A DNA stretch of 38,047 nucleotides, from positions 1 to 38,047 of the forward strand of contig QHSP01000102.1 in assembly GCA_003220495.1 (NCBI GenBank). Reading direction: 5' to 3'. Under the pieces are notes generated by a model. That model had not been told where the DNA came from and made no database searches. It saw only the letters and a program-made list of their open reading frames with translations. The translations under genes and the position numbers were made by a program. Origin of the DNA: Candidatus Rokuibacteriota bacterium (GTDB taxonomy: Bacteria; Methylomirabilota; Methylomirabilia; Rokubacteriales; CSP1-6). Shown one piece after another: positions 8,488-38,047 of this stretch (position 1 is its first letter; every line of letters begins with the position of its first letter).

Positions 8488-9175
8488 GGTTCTGTGGCTC
8501 GCGCTGCCCTTGATCGTCATCGCTGTGGTTGCCGCCGGGGTGTTGGGGGCGTGCGTCAAGTCCGGCGATTGGACGTCGGCCTTCATGCTGGAGCCGGACG
8601 AACTGGTCTCGACCGGGCGCAACCCCTACTTCGTCTTGGAACCGGGATATACGCTCGTTCTCGAGGGGGAAGGCGCCCAGCTGACCATCACCGTGCTGAA
8701 CGAGACGAAGAAAGTCGACGGCGTGGTGACGCGCGTGGTCGAGGAGCGCGAAACCAAGGGCGGCAAGCTGACGGAGGTCGCTCGGAACTATTTCGCGATC
8801 AGCAAGCGGACCAACGACGTCTTCTATTTCGGCGAAGACGTCGACATGTACAAGGACGGCAAGGTCGTCAACCATGAGGGGTCGTGGCTCTCCGGCGTCA
8901 ACGGCAGCAAGTTCGGGCTGATGATGCCGGGGCGGGCGCTGATCCAGTCCAGATATTACCAGGAGGTCGCCCCGAATATCGCGATGGACCGCGCCACGAT
9001 CGTCAGCGTGACCGAGACGGTCAAGACCCCGGCCGGCGTGTTCGCGAACTGTCTGAAGGTGGAGGAGACGAGTCCCCTCAGCCGCTTCAGCACCGAGTAC
9101 AAGTACTACGCGCCCGGCATCGGGATGGTGAGCGACGGGACGATGAAATTGGTGAAGGTCGTGAAAGGGCGGTGA
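8474..9175 (+). CDS. Lipoprotein of unknown function, paralogue of the secreted protein at 2128
   Basis: 233 residues from ATG 8474, with AAGGAGA eight bases upstream; the open frame extends further 5' but without coding character. N-terminus MRMRKVLWLALPLIVIAVVA, then a plausible lipobox LGAC (Cys27). The mature part follows the same plan as the protein at 2128: NPYFVLEPGYTLVLEG, KTKKVDGV-type strand, FYFGEDVDMYKDG, GSWLSGVNGSKFGLMMPG, and near the C-terminus TPAGVFANCLKVEE and KYYAPGIGMVSDG. This family is predicted to be an all-beta extracytoplasmic domain and has no known activity. It lies between the regulated promoter and the PAP2 gene, ten bases before the latter, so the three plus-strand genes probably form an envelope-related operon. 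Confidence 0.82.
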   Translation: MRMRKVLWLALPLIVIAVVAAGVLGACVKSGDWTSAFMLEPDELVSTGRNPYFVLEPGYTLVLEGEGAQLTITVLNETKKVDGVVTRVVEERETKGGKLTEVARNYFAISKRTNDVFYFGEDVDMYKDGKVVNHEGSWLSGVNGSKFGLMMPGRALIQSRYYQEVAPNIAMDRATIVSVTETVKTPAGVFANCLKVEETSPLSRFSTEYKYYAPGIGMVSDGTMKLVKVVKGR

Positions 9176-9185
9176 CGACTGGCTC

Positions 9186-9803
9186 GTGAACCGATCGGGC
9201 GTCGCGCGCTGGCGCCTGGTGTGCTTGATCTCGCTGGGTGTCTTCCTCGGTCTCGGTCTGGCGGTCTACGCGACAGGCGCCTTGCCCGGCGACATGTTTC
9301 TCCTCCGAGAGCTCGCGGCGTGGGACGGTGGTCTCACGAGCGAGCTCGCGCGCTCGGTGAACCATGCGGGCAGGGCGCAGGTGCTGGTCCCGGCAACGAT
9401 TCTGCTGTTCTGGCTGTCGCCGGCGGCGCGGCGCCGCTGGTGGCTCTGGTGCGCCGTCCTCAGCGGCGCCCCGCTGCTTCAGAACGTTCTCAAATTCTTC
9501 GTGGGCCGGCCCCGCCCGAACGGGTTGTCCTTCGGCTTTCCCAGCGGGGACGTCACGGCCGCGACGGCTTTCGCGCTTGTGCTGATCTACCTCGCGAGTC
9601 GCGAGCGGCTCGGCCGTGGTCCGCGATTGGCCATCGCGGCGCTCGCCGCGTGCTTGATGCTCGCGGTCGGCTGGGCCCGCATCATCCGCTACGCTCATTG
9701 GCCCTCAGACGTGCTTGGTGGTTTCCTCCTGGGCACGTGCTGCGCCGCAGCTGCGGCCTGGTGGGAAACCTCAAGATCGGAGGTGTTGGCGCCCGAACGA
9801 TGA
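9186..9803 (+). CDS. PAP2-superfamily membrane phosphatase-like protein with altered motif C2
   Basis: 205 residues, GTG start, five to six membrane segments. PAP2 enzymes remove phosphate from lipid phosphates such as phosphatidate or undecaprenyl pyrophosphate on the outer face of the membrane. Motif C1 is present (Lys103, then six residues, Arg110-Pro111, in KFFVGRPRP). Motif C3 is present with correct spacing (Arg165, His171, Asp175 in RIIRYAHWPSD), the usual Ser before Arg being Ala. Motif C2, normally PSGH, reads PSGD (residues 119-122), so the histidine that protonates the leaving group is missing. It may be inactive or altered. It ends the plus-strand set controlled from the divergent promoter. 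Confidence 0.85.
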   Translation: MNRSGVARWRLVCLISLGVFLGLGLAVYATGALPGDMFLLRELAAWDGGLTSELARSVNHAGRAQVLVPATILLFWLSPAARRRWWLWCAVLSGAPLLQNVLKFFVGRPRPNGLSFGFPSGDVTAATAFALVLIYLASRERLGRGPRLAIAALAACLMLAVGWARIIRYAHWPSDVLGGFLLGTCCAAAAAWWETSRSEVLAPER

Positions 9804-9873
9804 TCGCGCGGCCCATGTAGAATAGCCGCGAACGATGTTAGGCTGCGCCTTGCGGTTCGCCCGTCCCCACGAT

Positions 9874-9960
9874 GCGCGAGTGGCGAAACTGGCAGACGCG
9901 CTGGACTTAGGATCCAGTGGGCGAAAGCCCTTGGGGGTTCGACTCCCCCCTCGCGCACCA
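9874..9960 (+). tRNA. tRNA-Leu (anticodon TAG)
   Basis: 87 bases with encoded CCA. The acceptor stem GCGCGAG (9874-9880) pairs with CTCGCGC (9950-9956), followed by ACCA. The anticodon stem-loop is CTGGA-CTTAGGA-TCCAG, giving anticodon TAG, which reads CUA/CUG Leu codons. A long variable arm (class II, GGGCGAAAGCCC) and the T arm GGGGGTTCGACTCCCCC are present. The DNA after it is noticeably A/T-richer and leads into a truncated gene. Confidence 0.96.
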
Positions 9961-10045
9961 GCAGCACATTTCACCACTTACCACTCATTTTGAATACTCG
10001 CTCAGGCACCTTGGCGAACTGGTTGTGCGGGAAAATGGCCGATTG

Positions 10046-10402
10046 TGCGGGTCGCCGCAGGACGGTTACCTCGTTCTCGACAGGGCGAAATTCCGCGCCT
10101 CGTTCGCAGCCGACGTCGACCAAGAGACGGCGGCCTTCATGGCCGACTCCCAGGTCCCGTGGGGATTGAGCGCTCTCAGCGGAGCGATCAGCGAACCGGC
10201 GTGGAGGACCAAGCCGAGCTGGTACCTGGTGGTCACCGAGGACCAGATGATCCCCGTGGCCGCCCAGCGTGCGATGGCAAAGCGGGCGAAGTCCACGATT
10301 GTCGAAGTCAAGGGCAGCCACGCGATCTATGTCTCGCAGCCCGGAGCGGTTGCCGCGTTGATCGAACAAGCTGCCAAAAGCGTGAAGGTCGCTGGCGCCT
10401 AA
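10046..10402 (+). pseudogene. C-terminal remnant of an alpha/beta-hydrolase
   Basis: The frame encodes about 118 residues resembling the second half of esterase-like alpha/beta-hydrolases (EstA/methylesterase type). Landmarks are QDGYLVLDRAKF, ADVDQETAAFMADSQVPWG, EPAWRTKPSWYLVVTEDQMI, then the catalytic-His region VEVKGSHAIYVSQP. In these enzymes the Asp of the triad sits in the TEDQMI loop and the His in GSHA, and both are present. The nucleophile-elbow Ser (GxSxG) and the whole N-terminal half are absent. The open frame runs back into the tRNA, with no credible start. It is therefore a 5'-deleted gene, truncated about 85 bases after the tRNA-Leu gene. Confidence 0.7.
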
Positions 10403-32005: not shown

Positions 32006-33364
32006 TCACACCGGCCGTTCGAAGCCGTACTCGCGAGTCTGATTGAGATCGTCCGGCAGGATTCGCTCGCCGGTCCGCTGAAAGCCCATCCGCTCGTAGA
32101 GCCGATGCGCCTGCTCGAAGCGAGTGTCCGACCAGAGGATCAGGCGCGGAATATTCTGCGTCCGGCACCACTCGAGCACCGCCTCCACGAGAGCGCGGCC
32201 GGTGCCGCGTCCTCGCAGGCGGCTGTCCAGGTAGAGCCGATGCAGCTCCGCGCTGCCGCCGTCGAGACGCGCCACCCCGACCGAGCCGACGACCACGTTG
32301 TCTTCACGCACGACGAAGAAGGCGCCGCGCGGCGCCGCGTAGTGCTGGTCGAAGCGTAAGAGGTCGGGGACCTCGACCTCCGGCACGTAGACGAAGCCGT
32401 ACTCCAGGTACACCCGGCCGATGAGCTCGATGACGCCGGGCGCGTCCGCGCGTCCCGCCGGCCTGACCGCCAACGCGGTCCCCCGCGGGCGAGCGCGCTG
32501 GTCGATCGTCATGCGATCCCACGGCAGCACAATCACGGCGATCCCGATCAGCACGAGCGCCATCCCGGCGAGTCGGAGCGGGCCGAACCGCTCACCGAAC
32601 ACGAGAGCGGAGGAGTAGCCGCCGACGACCGGCACCAGCAGGGCGAACGGCGTCACCGTCGCCGCCGGATAGTGACGCAGGAGCCGGCCCCAGATCGCAT
32701 AGGCGAAGATGGTCGCGACGACCCCGAGATAGAGCGTGGCCGCGATCGCCAGCCCTGACGCGCTCGCGATGGCCCGCGGGAAGCCCATCGGGCCGTCGAG
32801 CACCAGCGAGAGCGCGAGCGCCGGCAGCGGCGGCACGAGACTGAGCCACACGATGAGATCGAGCATCGCCACCTCGCCGATCCGCTTCAGCAGGACGTTG
32901 CCGATGCCCCAGCTGATCGCGGAGCCCATCGCGAGGCAGAAGCCGACGACGGTCAGGTCGTGACCGATCGTGAGAACGATCAGGACCAGGCCCGCGAAGG
33001 CGACCGCCACGCCCGAGATCTGGCGCGCGGTGGGCCGCTCGCGCAAGGCCATCACCGCGAACACGATCGTGAAGAGCGCCTGGGTCTGGACGAGCAGCGA
33101 GGCCAGGCCGGGCGGCAGACCGTTGGCGATGGCGAAGAACTGAAGGAGGAACTGGCCGGCGAAGAGTGTCGCTCCGATCGCGATCAGCGGCGGCCACGTG
33201 AGCGCCGGACGCGGCAGGACCAGAGCAGGGACGGCAGCGATCAGGAACCGCAGCGCGGTCAGCTCAGGCGGCGAGAAGCTCTCCAGCCCGACCTTCGTGG
33301 CGACGAACGCCAGACCCCAGATAAGGACGACCAGCAGCGCGAGCGCGACGTGGGAGACGCTCAG
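32006..33364 (-). CDS. EamA/DMT transporter fused to a GNAT acetyltransferase, probable CTG start
   Basis: One open frame of 452 residues. Residues about 5-285 form two EamA units (ten helices): LALLVVLIWGLAFVATKVGL, LTALRFLIAAVPALVLP, QFFAIANGLPPGLASLL, QISGVAVAFAGLVLIVLTIG, VTPFALLVPVVGGYSSALVF, LRLAGMALVLIGIAVIVLPW. A linker (RMTIDQRARPRG) leads into a complete GNAT domain, about 300-452: LAVRPAGRADAPGVIELIGR, LHRLYLDSRLRGRGTGRALV (acetyl-CoA loop RGRGTGRA), LYERMGFQRTG. EamA proteins export small metabolites such as amino acids. The frame has no ATG/GTG/TTG before the first helix; CTG 33364, followed by SVSHVALALL, fits the family start. The first ATG in frame (33064) would cut away about three helices. 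13 bases separate it from the upstream gene of the iron-sulfur operon. Confidence 0.85.
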   Translation of the reverse strand: MSVSHVALALLVVLIWGLAFVATKVGLESFSPPELTALRFLIAAVPALVLPRPALTWPPLIAIGATLFAGQFLLQFFAIANGLPPGLASLLVQTQALFTIVFAVMALRERPTARQISGVAVAFAGLVLIVLTIGHDLTVVGFCLAMGSAISWGIGNVLLKRIGEVAMLDLIVWLSLVPPLPALALSLVLDGPMGFPRAIASASGLAIAATLYLGVVATIFAYAIWGRLLRHYPAATVTPFALLVPVVGGYSSALVFGERFGPLRLAGMALVLIGIAVIVLPWDRMTIDQRARPRGTALAVRPAGRADAPGVIELIGRVYLEYGFVYVPEVEVPDLLRFDQHYAAPRGAFFVVREDNVVVGSVGVARLDGGSAELHRLYLDSRLRGRGTGRALVEAVLEWCRTQNIPRLILWSDTRFEQAHRLYERMGFQRTGERILPDDLNQTREYGFERPV

Positions 33365-33377
33365 AGCGCGGCCGGTC

Positions 33378-33605
33378 CTAGCTCAGGATGGCGCGGCGGT
33401 AGTGGCTGGGATAGACGATGCCGGCGCGGGCGGGCAGCGCCGCCAGATCCTGAGCGATCTGCCAGCCGAGCGTCTTGAGCGCGTCGACGTCGGAGCGCTC
33501 GCGTTGGGCGAGCACGGTCCAGGCCGCCGCCTCGTCGGGCGCCGCGACGATCACGGGGCCGATGAAGTCGTGGTCGGTGATGCGCTCGAAGAAGTAGAGC
33601 GTCAC
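33378..33605 (-). CDS. 75-residue protein in the iron-sulfur operon
   Basis: GTG 33605 overlaps the stop of the upstream gene (GTGA). The protein VTLYFFERITDHDFIGPVIV AAPDEAAAW... carries a repeated small-domain feel: a strand (TLYFFERI), then GPVIVAAPDEAAAWTVLA, then a helix (DALKTLGWQIAQDLAAL) and a C-terminal GIVYPSHYRRAILS. No cysteines and no signal peptide. I do not recognise the family. 'AAPDEAAAW..LA' resembles the small YCII-like or ferredoxin-like folds that sense or process small molecules, but this is speculative. The position between an HTH-like gene and the transporter fusion, with overlaps and tight spacing, supports its reality. Confidence 0.65.
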   Translation of the reverse strand: MTLYFFERITDHDFIGPVIVAAPDEAAAWTVLAQRERSDVDALKTLGWQIAQDLAALPARAGIVYPSHYRRAILS

Positions 33606-33883
33606 TCCGGCTTGAGATCGGGCCGCTTGAGGGCGAGCGCCGACCACTCGAGGGTCGCCTTGCGCTTGAACTCGATCGCCTTCTCCCACTCGTCGAGCGA
33701 ATAGCAGTCGCGCTCGGCGACGCAGCGGATCTCGGTCACCGTGCGCTCGTCGAGGCCCAGCCGCTCGGCGATCTGCTTGTCGGAGAGACCGGGCTGGTCG
33801 ATCTTCTGGAACGAGTTGCAGAGCTTCAGCACCTCGTCCTTGTAGCGCTTGTAGACCTCGGGATCGAGCTTGAAAACCGCCAT
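33602..33883 (-). CDS. 93-residue protein with a helix-turn-helix-like segment
   Basis: ATG 33883 begins MAVFKLDPEVYKRYKDEVLK. Residues 33-57 (LSDKQIAERLGLDERTVTEI) have the spacing of a helix-turn-helix: small residue and Gly at the turn, recognition helix DERTVTEIRCVAE. The C-terminal half (SLDEWEKAIEFKRKATLEW) is helical and basic. It could be the local regulator, or a small subunit that works with the iron-sulfur proteins. A Cys in the recognition helix (IRCVAE) and another at DCYS are noteworthy if it senses redox state. The upstream iron-sulfur gene stops two bases before its ATG. Confidence 0.65.
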   Translation of the reverse strand: MAVFKLDPEVYKRYKDEVLKLCNSFQKIDQPGLSDKQIAERLGLDERTVTEIRCVAERDCYSLDEWEKAIEFKRKATLEWSALALKRPDLKPE

Positions 33884-33885
33884 AT

Positions 33886-34743
33886 CTATCTCATCTCCCT
33901 GAGCCCGTGGGCGGCGGGGCACACGCGCATGCACTCGAAGCACTGCGCGATGTTCGTCGACGAATAGGTGATGGCCCAGAGGCTGCGCGTGAAGAAGTCG
34001 CCGTAGAGGAGCATCTTGCGCTTGTCACGGTCGGGCTCGTTCAGCGTTTCTTCGAGCACCTTCTGGAACCCGCCGACCCAATGCGTGTGCACGCGCGTAT
34101 TGCAGCGCGCAGCATCGTAGAAGGTTCGCACGGCCCGGCCGTTCTCGAGCTTGCCCGAGAGGCATCCGCCGTTCGAGCCGGGGCAGGTTGCCAGGCACGG
34201 CGTGGTGCGCTCGCGATCCCACATCTCCCGGCAGGCCGGCGCCGGGCAGGCGGGGCTCGTCTCGACGCTGTCGGCGTCGAAGGGCGCGGTCGTGATCACC
34301 GCGCTCCAGTACATGAAGCCGTGCTCGCGGTTCAGCACCGGCCCGGCGAGCGATTTCGAGCCGAGGCCGGCGAGCTGCGCGGCCAGCATCAGCGAGAGAA
34401 AGGGCGTGTCGCCGCTCGCGGTGCCCGGCGGAACGTAGAGCGCGTAATAGCCGAACTCGCTCTCGATGTACTGGGCGAGCCGGCGGCCGACTCCCTGGAT
34501 GCGCTCGGTCGTGCCCATCGTCTGCATGACCCACGGCGAGGTAGCCGCCCAGTCGCCCTCACGCGGCTGGGCCCCGCCGACCACGACGACCGATCGGGCG
34601 CCCGGCAGGAGATCGCCCGGGCGGTGCTTCTCCGGCGCGTGCGCGTCGAACGCCACGGCGTCGGCGACGCCGCAGACCGTCGCGCCCCCTTTGAGCGCGA
34701 TCGACTTCAGCTTCGCGGTGGAGCCGGCAGGGAGCTCGGCCAC
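33886..34743 (-). CDS. QueG/reductive-dehalogenase-like iron-sulfur protein (copy 2)
   Basis: 285 residues from GTG 34743, whose G is the last base of the upstream TAG. Same plan as copy 1 and as QueG-type (COG1600) proteins. N-terminal GGATVCGVADAVAF and LLPGARSVVVVGG; central LAAQLAGLGSKSLAGPVLNR, EHGFMYWSAVITTAPFDADS (the QueG 'AGLG..G...L...P.YG......V.TD.P' core). Cysteines: CPAPAC, then TTPCLATCPGSNGGCLSGKL with a later AARC, and the C-terminal CFECMRVCP. These suggest two [4Fe-4S] clusters. QueG enzymes need cobalamin and reduce epoxyqueuosine in tRNA; this protein is shorter and differs in many core positions, so the substrate is open. Confidence 0.82.
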   Translation of the reverse strand: MAELPAGSTAKLKSIALKGGATVCGVADAVAFDAHAPEKHRPGDLLPGARSVVVVGGAQPREGDWAATSPWVMQTMGTTERIQGVGRRLAQYIESEFGYYALYVPPGTASGDTPFLSLMLAAQLAGLGSKSLAGPVLNREHGFMYWSAVITTAPFDADSVETSPACPAPACREMWDRERTTPCLATCPGSNGGCLSGKLENGRAVRTFYDAARCNTRVHTHWVGGFQKVLEETLNEPDRDKRKMLLYGDFFTRSLWAITYSSTNIAQCFECMRVCPAAHGLREMR

Positions 34744-35576
34744 TATTGAAGCTTCCGATATTTGCGCCCGACGGGACAGACGCGCATGCACTCGAAGCAC
34801 TGGGCGATCGAGTCGCGGAAGAAGCCGAGCGACTGGATGCTCTTCGTGAAGAAGTCGCTGTAGATCATCGTGCGACGGCGCTCGGGATCGTCCTCGTTCA
34901 CGATCTGCAGAAGCCCTTTCTGGAACGAGCCGATGCCGTACGTCTGCGCCCGGGAGTGGCACTTCTCGCGGTCGTAGGTCGAGGTCTGGATGCGCCCGTC
35001 CTGCACAGTTCCGCCCAGGCACGCCGGGCACACGCGCAGGCACGGCGTCGTCCCGATGCGCTTGTACATCGCCGCGCAGCCCGGATGCGGGCACGCGGGC
35101 TCCGTCAGCGGCTGATCGGGCTCGAGCGGCAGGGTCGTGATCAGCGCCGCGTAGTAGAGCAGGCCGTACTCGGGGTTCAGGATGATGTGCGCCGCGAGCG
35201 AGCGCGTGCCGAGCCCGGCGAGCTCGGCGGCGTGCATCATCGACATCGGCGGCTCGTGGCCGTGGACGGGTAGCGAAGGCGCCTGGATCGCGTGATGGGA
35301 CAGGGTGCCCTCGATGAAGTCGCACATCGCGTGCACGGCCACGTTCTCGCGCAGGTCGTAGCCGGTGATCTCCATCACGCGGTGATCGGGGCAGCGCCAC
35401 GCCCCGGCGGTCGGCCCGTCGCCGCCGGCGACGACCACGCTTCGGGCGCCGGGGAGGATGTCCTCGGGGCGATAGCCTTGCGGCACCTTCTCTCGGAACG
35501 CTTCGACCGCCGCGATGCCGACCACGCGCGCGCCGGCCTCGAGACCGACGGCTTTCAACTGCTCCTCGCGTGTCAT
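34743..35576 (-). CDS. QueG/reductive-dehalogenase-like iron-sulfur protein (copy 1)
   Basis: 277 residues from ATG 35576 (MTREEQLKAVGLEAGARVVG). N-terminal VVGIAAVEAFREKVPQGYRP and ILPGARSVVVAGGDGP; central HAAELAGLGTRSLAAHIILN, PEYGLLYYAALITTLPLEPD. Cysteine pattern: CPHPGC, TTPCLRVCPACLGG, then YDREKC about 20 residues on, and CFECMRVCPVG near the end, i.e. binding for two [4Fe-4S] clusters in the same order as copy 2. Conserved GSFQKGLLQIVNEDDPERRR and SDFFTKSIQSL also have counterparts in copy 2 (GGFQKVLEETLNEPDRDKRK, GDFFTRSLWAI), so this is a tandem duplication. No twin-arginine signal, so both are cytoplasmic, unlike respiratory reductive dehalogenases. It begins a five-gene overlapping operon. 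Confidence 0.83.
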   Translation of the reverse strand: MTREEQLKAVGLEAGARVVGIAAVEAFREKVPQGYRPEDILPGARSVVVAGGDGPTAGAWRCPDHRVMEITGYDLRENVAVHAMCDFIEGTLSHHAIQAPSLPVHGHEPPMSMMHAAELAGLGTRSLAAHIILNPEYGLLYYAALITTLPLEPDQPLTEPACPHPGCAAMYKRIGTTPCLRVCPACLGGTVQDGRIQTSTYDREKCHSRAQTYGIGSFQKGLLQIVNEDDPERRRTMIYSDFFTKSIQSLGFFRDSIAQCFECMRVCPVGRKYRKLQ

Positions 35577-35692
35577 GACGGCCCCAGGATAATCCCCTCC
35601 GGTTCGATGAGGGGTGAATAGTTCCAACAGGTTGGGGCGCTCACCACTCCTCATGATGTACGCCTTTATCGATATCTGCGCGGCTCTGGTGA

Positions 35693-35836
35693 ATGACGGC
35701 AAGACTGGGAACCGCGCTCTACACGCACTACTACGGGAAGGAATTTCCCGAGCGCTTCCACGACATCATGGACTCGCGGCGGTGGACGCCTGGAGAGCGG
35801 ATCGTCTTCGAGCCCTACACCAAGGAGGTGTTCGGA
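35693..35836 (+). pseudogene. N-terminal gene fragment of unknown family
   Basis: ATG 35693 reads MTARLGTALYTHYYGKEFPE, then RFHDIMDSRRWTPGERIVFE and PYTKEVFG. The composition and the amphipathic, aromatic-rich pattern look like real protein. After Gly48 the frame runs into the reverse strand of the MetE-like remnant and becomes Arg/Pro-rich nonsense. I do not recognise the family. Two decayed genes thus meet head to head near 35836. Confidence 0.4.
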
Positions 35837-35837
35837 T

Positions 35838-36107
35838 GGCGGGCACGAAGGCCTCGGCGACCGCGACGCCCCCAAGCGCGGCCTTCAGGGTGGCGAGGTC
35901 CTTCTCCAGCAACGCCTGACCCTTGTAGGTGATGGGGCCCTGGAGATGGCGGAGCACCTCGGTCACCGCCTCGGCGGCCCGCACCGCGAGCTCGGCCTCG
36001 TCGATGGCCTGGCCGCCCAGGCGGGCTCGGAGGAGAGCCCGTATGCTCTCCGGGCGGGGGATGCTGCCGACGTGGCTGGTGAGGATGCGCTCGGCGCTGG
36101 TCTTCAT
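35838..36107 (-). pseudogene. MetE-like (cobalamin-independent methionine synthase family) gene with internal and 3' deletions
   Basis: ATG 36107 starts MKTSAERILTSHVGSIPRPE, the canonical opening of the short MetE-like family (TSHVGSxPRP). About residue 50 the sequence jumps from EAVTEVLRHLQ to GPITYKGQALLEKDLATLKA and ALGGVAVAEAFVPAI, which belongs roughly 100 residues further on in full-length proteins of about 370 residues. It then ends at the junction with the plus-strand fragment near 35837. The zinc-binding His/Cys half is gone. Family members transfer methyl or alkyl groups to thiols. The remnant keeps its frame across the internal deletion. Confidence 0.7.
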
Positions 36108-36190
36108 CGCAACGCCGCCGGCATGGGGGCGCCAGCCCCGGGGAGGATATCAGGCTAGCTCGCGCGCAACGGCCTCGTCGCCAAACCTGT

Positions 36191-36220
36191 GCTGACGGTG
36201 ACGACGCTGACGGTGACGAC
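36191..36220 (+). repeat. Two tandem 15-bp units
   Basis: GCTGACGGTGACGAC occurs twice head to tail at 36191-36205 and 36206-36220. It lies in the 357-base stretch 36108-36464, in which I see no other feature or gene apart from the ribosome-binding site of the next gene. Confidence 0.8.
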
Positions 36221-36464
36221 ACAGTGACACCGCCTGAGGCCGGACCGCGCGCCAAAGGTCGGCGCCTCAAGGAACGTCCGATCGCGCGCGCTTCGGATAT
36301 CAACAGGTTCAGCGATACCCCTTTGCTGGTGTTCCCAGCGGTACGCGTCTTGCTCTTTCCCTCGGTCCATCGAGACGCCGTCGCGGGCCGTTTCGGGGCG
36401 AAAGTGCTCCGGCCGATCGGCGGCGCGGTCATCAACGTCCAGGCAGTGCAGAAAGGAGCGCAGT

Positions 36465-37124
36465 ATGAGGGATCTTGCTATTGCGCGATCACTCGCCTTT
36501 GTCATGGTCATGGCCATCGCCCTGATGCCGATCCAAGCAGCAGTCGCGCAGGAGGACCGCGAGTCGGTCAGGGAGGGCCGCGGGTCGCAGTCGGCCGCCC
36601 TCGTCCTTCCCCTGAGCGGGAACGTCACCTCCGGCGGTACAGGAACATTTCGGGGCACGCTCAGCGTGCAGCGCTTTGCCAGAAAGGCGAACCAGATCGT
36701 GGCCGTGGGGCTGATCACAGGTACGCTCGCCCCGGCCGGGGGCCCCGTGGGCACACTCGTGTATCGTCATCTTGTCGAGATACCGGTCACGTTGACCCAG
36801 GCCGTCGCGGGCGTGGCCCCGTCGGGGGCGGTGAGACCGGTTCGCTACGAAGCAGGAATGCCGCGTATCATTCTCGCCCAGGCAACGTGCGGGGTCTTGA
36901 ATCTTGAGCTCGGCGCCATCACCATCAACGCCCTCGGGCTGACCATCACGACGAATCCCATCGTCCTCGATATCTCCGGTGACACGGCGGGGCCCCTGGG
37001 TAACGTGGTCTGTCAGATCCTCACCCTCCTCGGCACCGTCGGAAACGTGATCGGTCTCGTGGTGAATCTGCTCAATACGCTCCTCGGCTTGCTTGGGGGT
37101 TTGACGGGCGGCCTGGCAATCTAA
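36465..37124 (+). CDS. Secreted protein with a hydrophobic LGAxxxNALGL-type C-terminus
   Basis: 219 residues. AAAGGAG precedes ATG 36465. Signal peptide to about residue 29 (LAFVMVMAIALMPIQAAVAQ). The middle looks beta-rich: VLPLSGNVTSGGTGTFRGTL, SVQRFARKANQIVAVGLITG, where the G-x-F-x-G-x-L pattern is a recurrent module in soil-bacterial secreted proteins. The C-terminal third (CGVLNLELGAITINALGLTI, TTNPIVLDISGDTAGPLGNV, VCQILTLLGTVGNVIGLVVN) is very hydrophobic, with a Cys pair (CGVL ... NVVCQIL) likely to form a disulfide, and ends in LLGLLGGLTGGLAI. The family is widespread and uncharacterised as far as I know. A strong hairpin follows 29 bases after the stop, so this is probably a single-gene unit. 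Confidence 0.75.
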   Translation: MRDLAIARSLAFVMVMAIALMPIQAAVAQEDRESVREGRGSQSAALVLPLSGNVTSGGTGTFRGTLSVQRFARKANQIVAVGLITGTLAPAGGPVGTLVYRHLVEIPVTLTQAVAGVAPSGAVRPVRYEAGMPRIILAQATCGVLNLELGAITINALGLTITTNPIVLDISGDTAGPLGNVVCQILTLLGTVGNVIGLVVNLLNTLLGLLGGLTGGLAI

Positions 37125-37152
37125 GGAGTTTCAGCAGACGGTGCGCAACGAA

Positions 37153-37187
37153 GCATGAGCGCCGCAGGTTCGCTGCGGCGCTCATGC
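37153..37187 (+). terminator. Strong hairpin after the secreted-protein gene
   Basis: GCATGAGCGCCGCA (37153-37166) and TGCGGCGCTCATGC (37174-37187) form a perfect 14-bp stem closed by the 7-base loop GGTTCGC. There is no T-run, so it would work as an mRNA 3'-end stabiliser or a non-canonical terminator. Confidence 0.6.
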
Positions 37188-37289
37188 CCGCTTCTCCCTA
37201 CAGCGCCGCGTGAGCCGAAAGCGCCGCTTTCTCGACCTTTATGTCGCTTAGCCTCTACTCGAGTATAGAGGCCTAAATTTTCCCTCCGG

Positions 37290-37295
37290 TATAAT
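37290..37295 (+). promoter_or_regulatory. Consensus -10 TATAAT before the acyl-CoA synthetase gene
   Basis: A perfect TATAAT ends nine bases before ATG 37305. The usual 6-7 base distance to the start point would begin the transcript about three bases before the ATG, and no ribosome-binding site is present, so a leaderless mRNA is predicted. No good -35 is visible 16-18 bases upstream. Confidence 0.5.
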
Positions 37296-37304
37296 CCGCC
37301 CGGC

Positions 37305-38047
37305 ATGAATTTCGAGGCGTTGTGCGCGAGCACTCTGCCGGGCTTGCTCGTCGAGCGCGCGCGGGCACGACCCGAGCGGGTCGCGTTCCGCGCGAAGGAG
37401 CTCGGCATCTGGCGCGAGACCACGTGGCGCGAGCTCGCCGCGCGGGTCGCCGCGCTCGCGTGCGGGCTCGCGCGCGAGTACCGGATCGCGCCGGGCGAGA
37501 CGGTGGCCATCATCGGCAACCCGTGCCCGGAGTGGACCATCGCGGATCTGGCGACGCAGGCGCTCGGCGCGATCACCTACGGCATCTATCCGACGAGCGC
37601 GCCGGGCGAGGTGCGTCATCTGCTCCAGCACGGCGGCGCCTCGCTGATCGTCGCCGAAGATCAGGAGCACCTCGACAAGACGCTCGAGGTGCTCGACGAG
37701 TGTCCGGATGTTCGCGCCGTGCTGGTGATCGACACGCGCGCGCTCTTCATGTACCGCCACCCGCGCGTGCGGCCTCTCGCCGAGGTCGAAGAGCGCGGCC
37801 GTGAGGCGCTCGCCGGCGAGCCCGATGTACTCGACCGGCTGGCGCGCGCCCTGTCGCCCAACGCCCCCGCGACGATCATCTATACATCCGGGACCACGGG
37901 GCACCCGAAGGGGGCGGTCTACCGTCATGGGCCGCACCTGGCCGCGTGCGCCAACATCGTCGCGCACTACCCGATTCTGGAGTCCCGAGAGCATCGCGCC
38001 GTCGCGATGCTCCCGCTTTGTCACGCGATGGGCCGCAACCTGGCTAT
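37305..38047 (+). CDS. AMP-forming long-chain acyl-CoA synthetase, 3'-truncated by window edge
   Basis: 247 residues seen of about 600. MNFEALCASTLPGLLVERAR is followed by WRETTWRELAARVAALACGL, GETVAIIGNPCPEWTIADLA and QALGAITYGIYPTSAPGEVR, all typical of FadD15/FAA1-type ANL enzymes. The P-loop-like A3 motif is TIIYTSGTTGHPKGAVYRH (about 189-207), and PLCHAMGRN begins the next conserved block. The enzyme adenylates a fatty acid and transfers it to CoA. The first half contains the acyl-binding and AMP-binding elements; the C-terminal lid is beyond the window. Chain-length preference cannot be read. Confidence 0.93.
   Translation, partial: MNFEALCASTLPGLLVERARARPERVAFRAKELGIWRETTWRELAARVAALACGLAREYRIAPGETVAIIGNPCPEWTIADLATQALGAITYGIYPTSAPGEVRHLLQHGGASLIVAEDQEHLDKTLEVLDECPDVRAVLVIDTRALFMYRHPRVRPLAEVEERGREALAGEPDVLDRLARALSPNAPATIIYTSGTTGHPKGAVYRHGPHLAACANIVAHYPILESREHRAVAMLPLCHAMGRNLA

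Follow-up and report, generated by a model that had tools for sequence, protein, structure and literature searches.

Two groups of class III B12 enzymes have been described, QueG and the reductive dehalogenases (PMC4646009). No cobalamin sequence motif exists for the class, and the authors of the QueG structure noted that more families may exist but that a sequence motif with which to find them is lacking (PMC4646009). Here, we describe a candidate for such a family, represented by two adjacent genes, F1 and F2, within a 38,047-nucleotide stretch of DNA from a Candidatus Rokuibacteriota bacterium (hereafter, the window).

A sequence-only reading of the window had proposed a five-gene minus-strand operon, and all five genes are indeed present, from position 35576 down to 32006. 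F1 (34743–35576, 277 aa, ATG start at 35576) overlaps F2 (33886–34743, 285 aa, GTG start) by one base. A gap of two bases separates F2 from S1 (33602–33883, 93 aa, ATG start), which in turn overlaps S2 (33378–33605, 75 aa, GTG start) by four bases. F1 and F2 are paralogues with one ordered set of cysteines, as that reading had recognized, and are 43% identical. The fifth gene (32006–33364) encodes a fusion in which an EamA transporter (1e-30) and a GNAT acetyltransferase (4e-19) do share one frame. This frame is open from 33382 and contains no ATG, GTG or TTG before residue ~100. Since the fusion relatives examined have a CTG at the position corresponding to 33364, a CTG start is likely; the arrangement suggests initiation either at this codon or by coupling to S2. 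Thus, the claim that no gap in the operon exceeds 13 bases holds for the other junctions, and for the S2-fusion junction only if the CTG is the start. Leaving aside the window's own genome, 8 of 58 related genomes contain F1, F2, S1, and S2 jointly (in two of the eight, the cluster is divided over contig ends), with F1 82–96% identical. Because these four genes recur jointly, the cluster is not a chance assembly.

The last two genes of the operon are more restricted. S2 is confined to Rokubacteria within the genomes searched, and the EamA-GNAT fusion adjoins the operon in the window's genus only, the EamA and GNAT relatives in the rest of the family being encoded as separate genes. One genome of the same genus (G008), in which F1, F2, and S1 were not found, still has the fusion at 77% identity and, directly upstream of it, a remnant of S2. 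Since S2 and the fusion are not conserved alongside the core, a five-gene functional unit was ruled out. The operon therefore comprises two core enzymes (F1 and F2), one core partner (S1), and two local additions. The idea that a product of the pathway is acetylated and exported is not supported, given that the fusion adjoins the operon in one genus only, persists in G008, where F1, F2, and S1 were not found, and has EamA and GNAT relatives encoded separately elsewhere in the family.

The distribution of the core was assessed with a motif-based scan of named genomes, which identified at least 79 loci in six phyla (Rokubacteria, Acidobacteriota, Tectomicrobia, Planctomycetota, Pseudomonadota, and Actinomycetota). 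Among the matches listed, F1 is followed by F2 in 44 loci, and S1 also follows in 43 of these, two of which have the order interrupted by a contig end. The sole F1-F2 locus without S1 among these matches is from a planctomycete (L087). The expectation that the five genes stay together is thus borne out for F1-F2-S1 in 43 of the 44 loci listed, and fails for S2 and the fusion, which are specific to a lineage. A further 35 loci among the matches listed carry a lone F gene that has diverged, F3 (about 36% identity), and in every one of the 35 a protein with an S1-like domain follows. In 26 cases this protein exceeds 400 aa and continues into an acyl-CoA synthetase-like region, which in the L127 protein matches AMP-binding at E 1e-82; another seven S1 domains stand alone, and two are cut short. 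At L136, the usual motifs in the synthetase-like region of the fused protein (8891–10309) look degenerate, and an intact synthetase gene lies immediately upstream of F3. In a search for plasmid-borne relatives in named organisms, F1 and F3 gave no match, and RdhA-like and A2 queries (A2 is a QueG-like protein described below) gave distant RdhA/QueG matches only. No description of the F family or of this gene association was found in the open-access literature, in agreement with the sequence-only reading, which knew of no described system with this composition.

When F1, F2, and F3 are aligned with QueG and the RdhA-like proteins from the window's genome, the eight cysteines that hold the clusters in QueG and RdhA recur in all three types, apart from three single-row departures that all fall in F2 rows; in the window, F2 retains the complete set. 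Relative to QueG and the RdhA-like proteins, the F family has extra residues within the first motif, between cysteines 2 and 3. A ninth cysteine (C186) occurs in all 123 F rows and has no counterpart in QueG, RdhA or A2/B2. Family models do not place these proteins. Neither F1 nor F2 has a Pfam match above cut-off, and their NCBIfam matches are sub-threshold: both score well below the cut-off of the QueG model (TIGR00276; 19.4 and 18.1 bits against 200), and against the reductive dehalogenase model (TIGR02486) F1 reaches 24.5 bits, with a cut-off of 160, and F2 has no match. In a phylogenetic tree that carries long-branch warnings, F1, F2, and F3 cluster together with support and are separate from QueG and RdhA. 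A separate QueG is encoded elsewhere in the window's genome, which also has CobS. An ordinary QueG or RdhA identity was ruled out by the curated cut-offs, the tree, and the separate QueG.

The predicted structure of F1 (mean pLDDT 89) resembles QueG over residues 1–276 (Z 17.3, 204 residues, 3.2 Å), and whole-chain matches are also obtained to the dehalogenases PceA (Z 15.8) and NpRdhA (Z 15.4). The next matches, MMACHC (Z 9.7) and CblD, are both B12 proteins, and FMN nitroreductases rank below them (Z about 6). The conserved cysteines together with this QueG-like fold support two cluster sites in F1. Thus, the earlier assignment to the QueG/RdhA type stands in silico for the two cluster sites and the B12-type fold, and does not extend to the curated QueG and dehalogenase cut-offs, which F1 fails to reach. 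A class III cobalamin enzyme, as judged from predicted fold and cysteines, is the best reading of F1 and F2, one or the other of which would bind cobalamin.

Alternatively, F1 and F2 could bind clusters and serve as redox partners or activases of an RdhA-like, Rieske or luciferase-like enzyme. The tyrosine of RdhA and QueG that lies over the corrin (QueG Tyr101, PceA Tyr246) is Y in 41 of 45 F1 rows, and most F2 and F3 rows have T, in a region of poor alignment. The absence of this residue from F2 and F3 would fit a carrier; since the RdhA rows are not well aligned there, the tyrosine is only a hint. Enzymes of the three kinds are also found at some loci. However, many F1-F2-S1 and F3-S1 loci lack all of them, and the B12-type fold is retained at full length, which makes a role solely in electron transfer improbable.

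A gene often found beside the core encodes an acyl-CoA synthetase, the partner that matters and one that the sequence-only reading had missed. After dereplication of the loci at 80% into 25 groups, synthetase genes occur at 0.41 per kb within the first flanking kb and at 0 to 0.02 per kb past 2 kb, compared with a background of 0.006 per kb in the window's genome (35 AMP-binding genes in 5.98 Mb). A synthetase lies within 2.5 kb in 20 of the 25 groups. In six genomes of the same genus, it is divergent from F1 and 40–41 bp away, and at four loci (L099, L100, L104, and L108) it overlaps F1. In the window itself, the synthetase gene (37305–38047, plus strand, AMP-binding, truncated by the window edge) is parted from F1 by ~1.7 kb (35577–37304) that are missing in the genus's other genomes. 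No synthetase was seen nearby at the acidobacterial loci or at L087. At several acidobacterial loci, L081 (10070–11104) among them, a luciferase-like monooxygenase gene follows F1-F2-S1 in place of the synthetase. In gammaproteobacterial loci (for example, L098, 10858–14621), F1-F2-S1 is followed by genes for an acyl-CoA synthetase and for the alpha subunit of a Rieske oxygenase.

Other neighbors are themselves RdhA-like or QueG-like. RdhA-like genes lie close to six F loci (L104, L108, L118, L127, L129, and L140), and the one protein tested, from L127, scores 186 bits, above the curated RDH cut-off of 160. At four loci (L120, L121, L122, and L124), relatives of a second tandem QueG-like pair, A2/B2, are encoded in the same operon as F3, S1, and a PaaK-like ligase. 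In the window's genome, the A2/B2 pair (L064, 9045–10981) lies beside another Liv-type ABC cassette, with a bifunctional salicylyl-CoA 5-hydroxylase-like gene nearby. Taken together, the RdhA-like, PaaK-like, and salicylyl-CoA 5-hydroxylase neighbors point to metabolism of acid CoA thioesters, perhaps of aryl acids. The window's genome also encodes two more RdhA-like proteins (L153 and L154; 430 and 458 aa), both under the QueG cut-off.

A third kind of neighbor, resembling the MetE core, raises the question of methyl transfer. In such a scheme, a methoxylated or methylthio acid would donate a methyl group to cobalamin in F1 or F2, from which it would pass to the nearby MetE-like methyltransferase, with the clusters keeping the cobalt reduced. 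At L078, a MetE-core-like gene does lie 1 bp upstream of F1; others are found at L126, downstream of F3-S1-synthetase, and in the window's genus, within the divergent ABC cassette. However, MetE-like genes are labelled near just 9 of the 79 loci listed and belong to differing subfamilies, and the window's own copy (35766–36107, minus strand, inside the ~1.7-kb extra stretch) is a broken fragment. To our knowledge, no class III enzyme transfers methyl groups. We therefore regard methyl transfer as unlikely and continue to favor a reductase.

S1 is the constant small partner of the F genes. Its model consists of four helices (pLDDT 85), and its matches are HTH-like but weak, both in Pfam (below cut-off; HTH_23, E 2.6e-4) and in structure (sigma region 4 and DeoR, Z up to 6.6). 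Profile comparison relates S1 to the N-terminal domain of the F3-linked synthetases (hhalign probability 96.8%, E 2.7e-10) and to the stand-alone S1-like version at F3 loci (96.9%). Across 80 genomes of one order, nine F-family genes were found in five genomes; the same five genomes contain nine S1 domains, each directly downstream of an F gene, and no S1 was found away from F genes. One of the five genomes supplied a row to both query models, and the pairing elsewhere is independent of that. The model of S1 would fit either a docking role or binding to DNA. If S1 were a transcription regulator of the operon, a role compatible with F1 and F2 being reductases, then its fusion to the synthetase would be BirA-like, joining a ligase to a DNA-binding domain. 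The predicted helices and the weak HTH_23, sigma region 4, and DeoR matches are what such a protein might show; the strict one-to-one pairing with F genes and the position always downstream are unusual for a regulator, and Foldseek returned no match for S1 with E below 0.001. Regulation is thus a possible role of S1, although in our judgment not a probable one.

These observations can be combined into a pathway for the catabolism of CoA-activated acids. A carboxylic acid would enter the cell, through a Liv-type ABC transporter in several lineages, and would be activated by the acyl-CoA synthetase. F1 and F2 would form a cytoplasmic, probably heteromeric, class III reductase dependent on cobalamin and [4Fe-4S] clusters. 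Two clusters would relay electrons to a base-off cobalamin located in F1 or F2, and this cobalamin would reductively cleave a C-X bond (X being halogen or oxygen) of the acyl-CoA or the acid. S1 may be a dedicated adaptor coupling reductase to synthetase, welded to the latter at F3-type loci, or else a local regulator. We put the chances of this combination of reductase, synthetase, and S1 in either role at about even. More tentatively, the F proteins may add a third family to class III, one of cobalamin/[4Fe-4S] reductases that act on CoA-activated acids, are heteromeric in many phyla, and are coupled to the activating ligase by an HTH-like adaptor that is sometimes fused to it. If so, a reductive step would be added to the acid catabolism of uncultured soil and marine bacteria, and the family could have a bearing on compounds that are recalcitrant or halogenated. 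The long motif-1 insertion, the ninth cysteine, and the dedicated partner with its ligase fusions provide a handle with which to search for further members.

Among known systems, QueG (TIGR00276; PDB 5d08 and 5d6s) has the domain order predicted for F1 and F2, a B12-type N-domain and then a ferredoxin domain with two clusters and eight cluster cysteines; its tyrosine may have a counterpart in F1, in the poorly aligned region noted above. F1 and F2 differ from it in the cysteine 2–3 insertion and the ninth invariant cysteine, and in lacking the C-terminal HEAT-repeat domain, F1 stopping just past the cluster domain. MMACHC/CblC, a B12-processing protein, resembles F1 in its cobalamin-binding, nitroreductase-like fold, but it has no ferredoxin domain and is a weaker match than QueG or RdhA. 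The A2/B2 pair of the window's genome (C120) is likewise a set of tandem QueG-like paralogues adjoining a Liv-type ABC cassette, but it has a shorter cluster motif, does not have the ninth cysteine, and falls in a separate clade. Finally, the reductive dehalogenases (TIGR02486; respiratory and catabolic, with PceA, NpRdhA, and BhbA) have the core fold and cluster cysteines of F1 and F2, whereas F1 and F2 are without the N-terminal extension, form a separate clade, and are paired with S1 and acyl-CoA synthetases. In catabolic RdhAs, a vestigial second copy of the core mimics a dimer (PMC10463259), and the F1/F2 pair could be analogous to this duplication.
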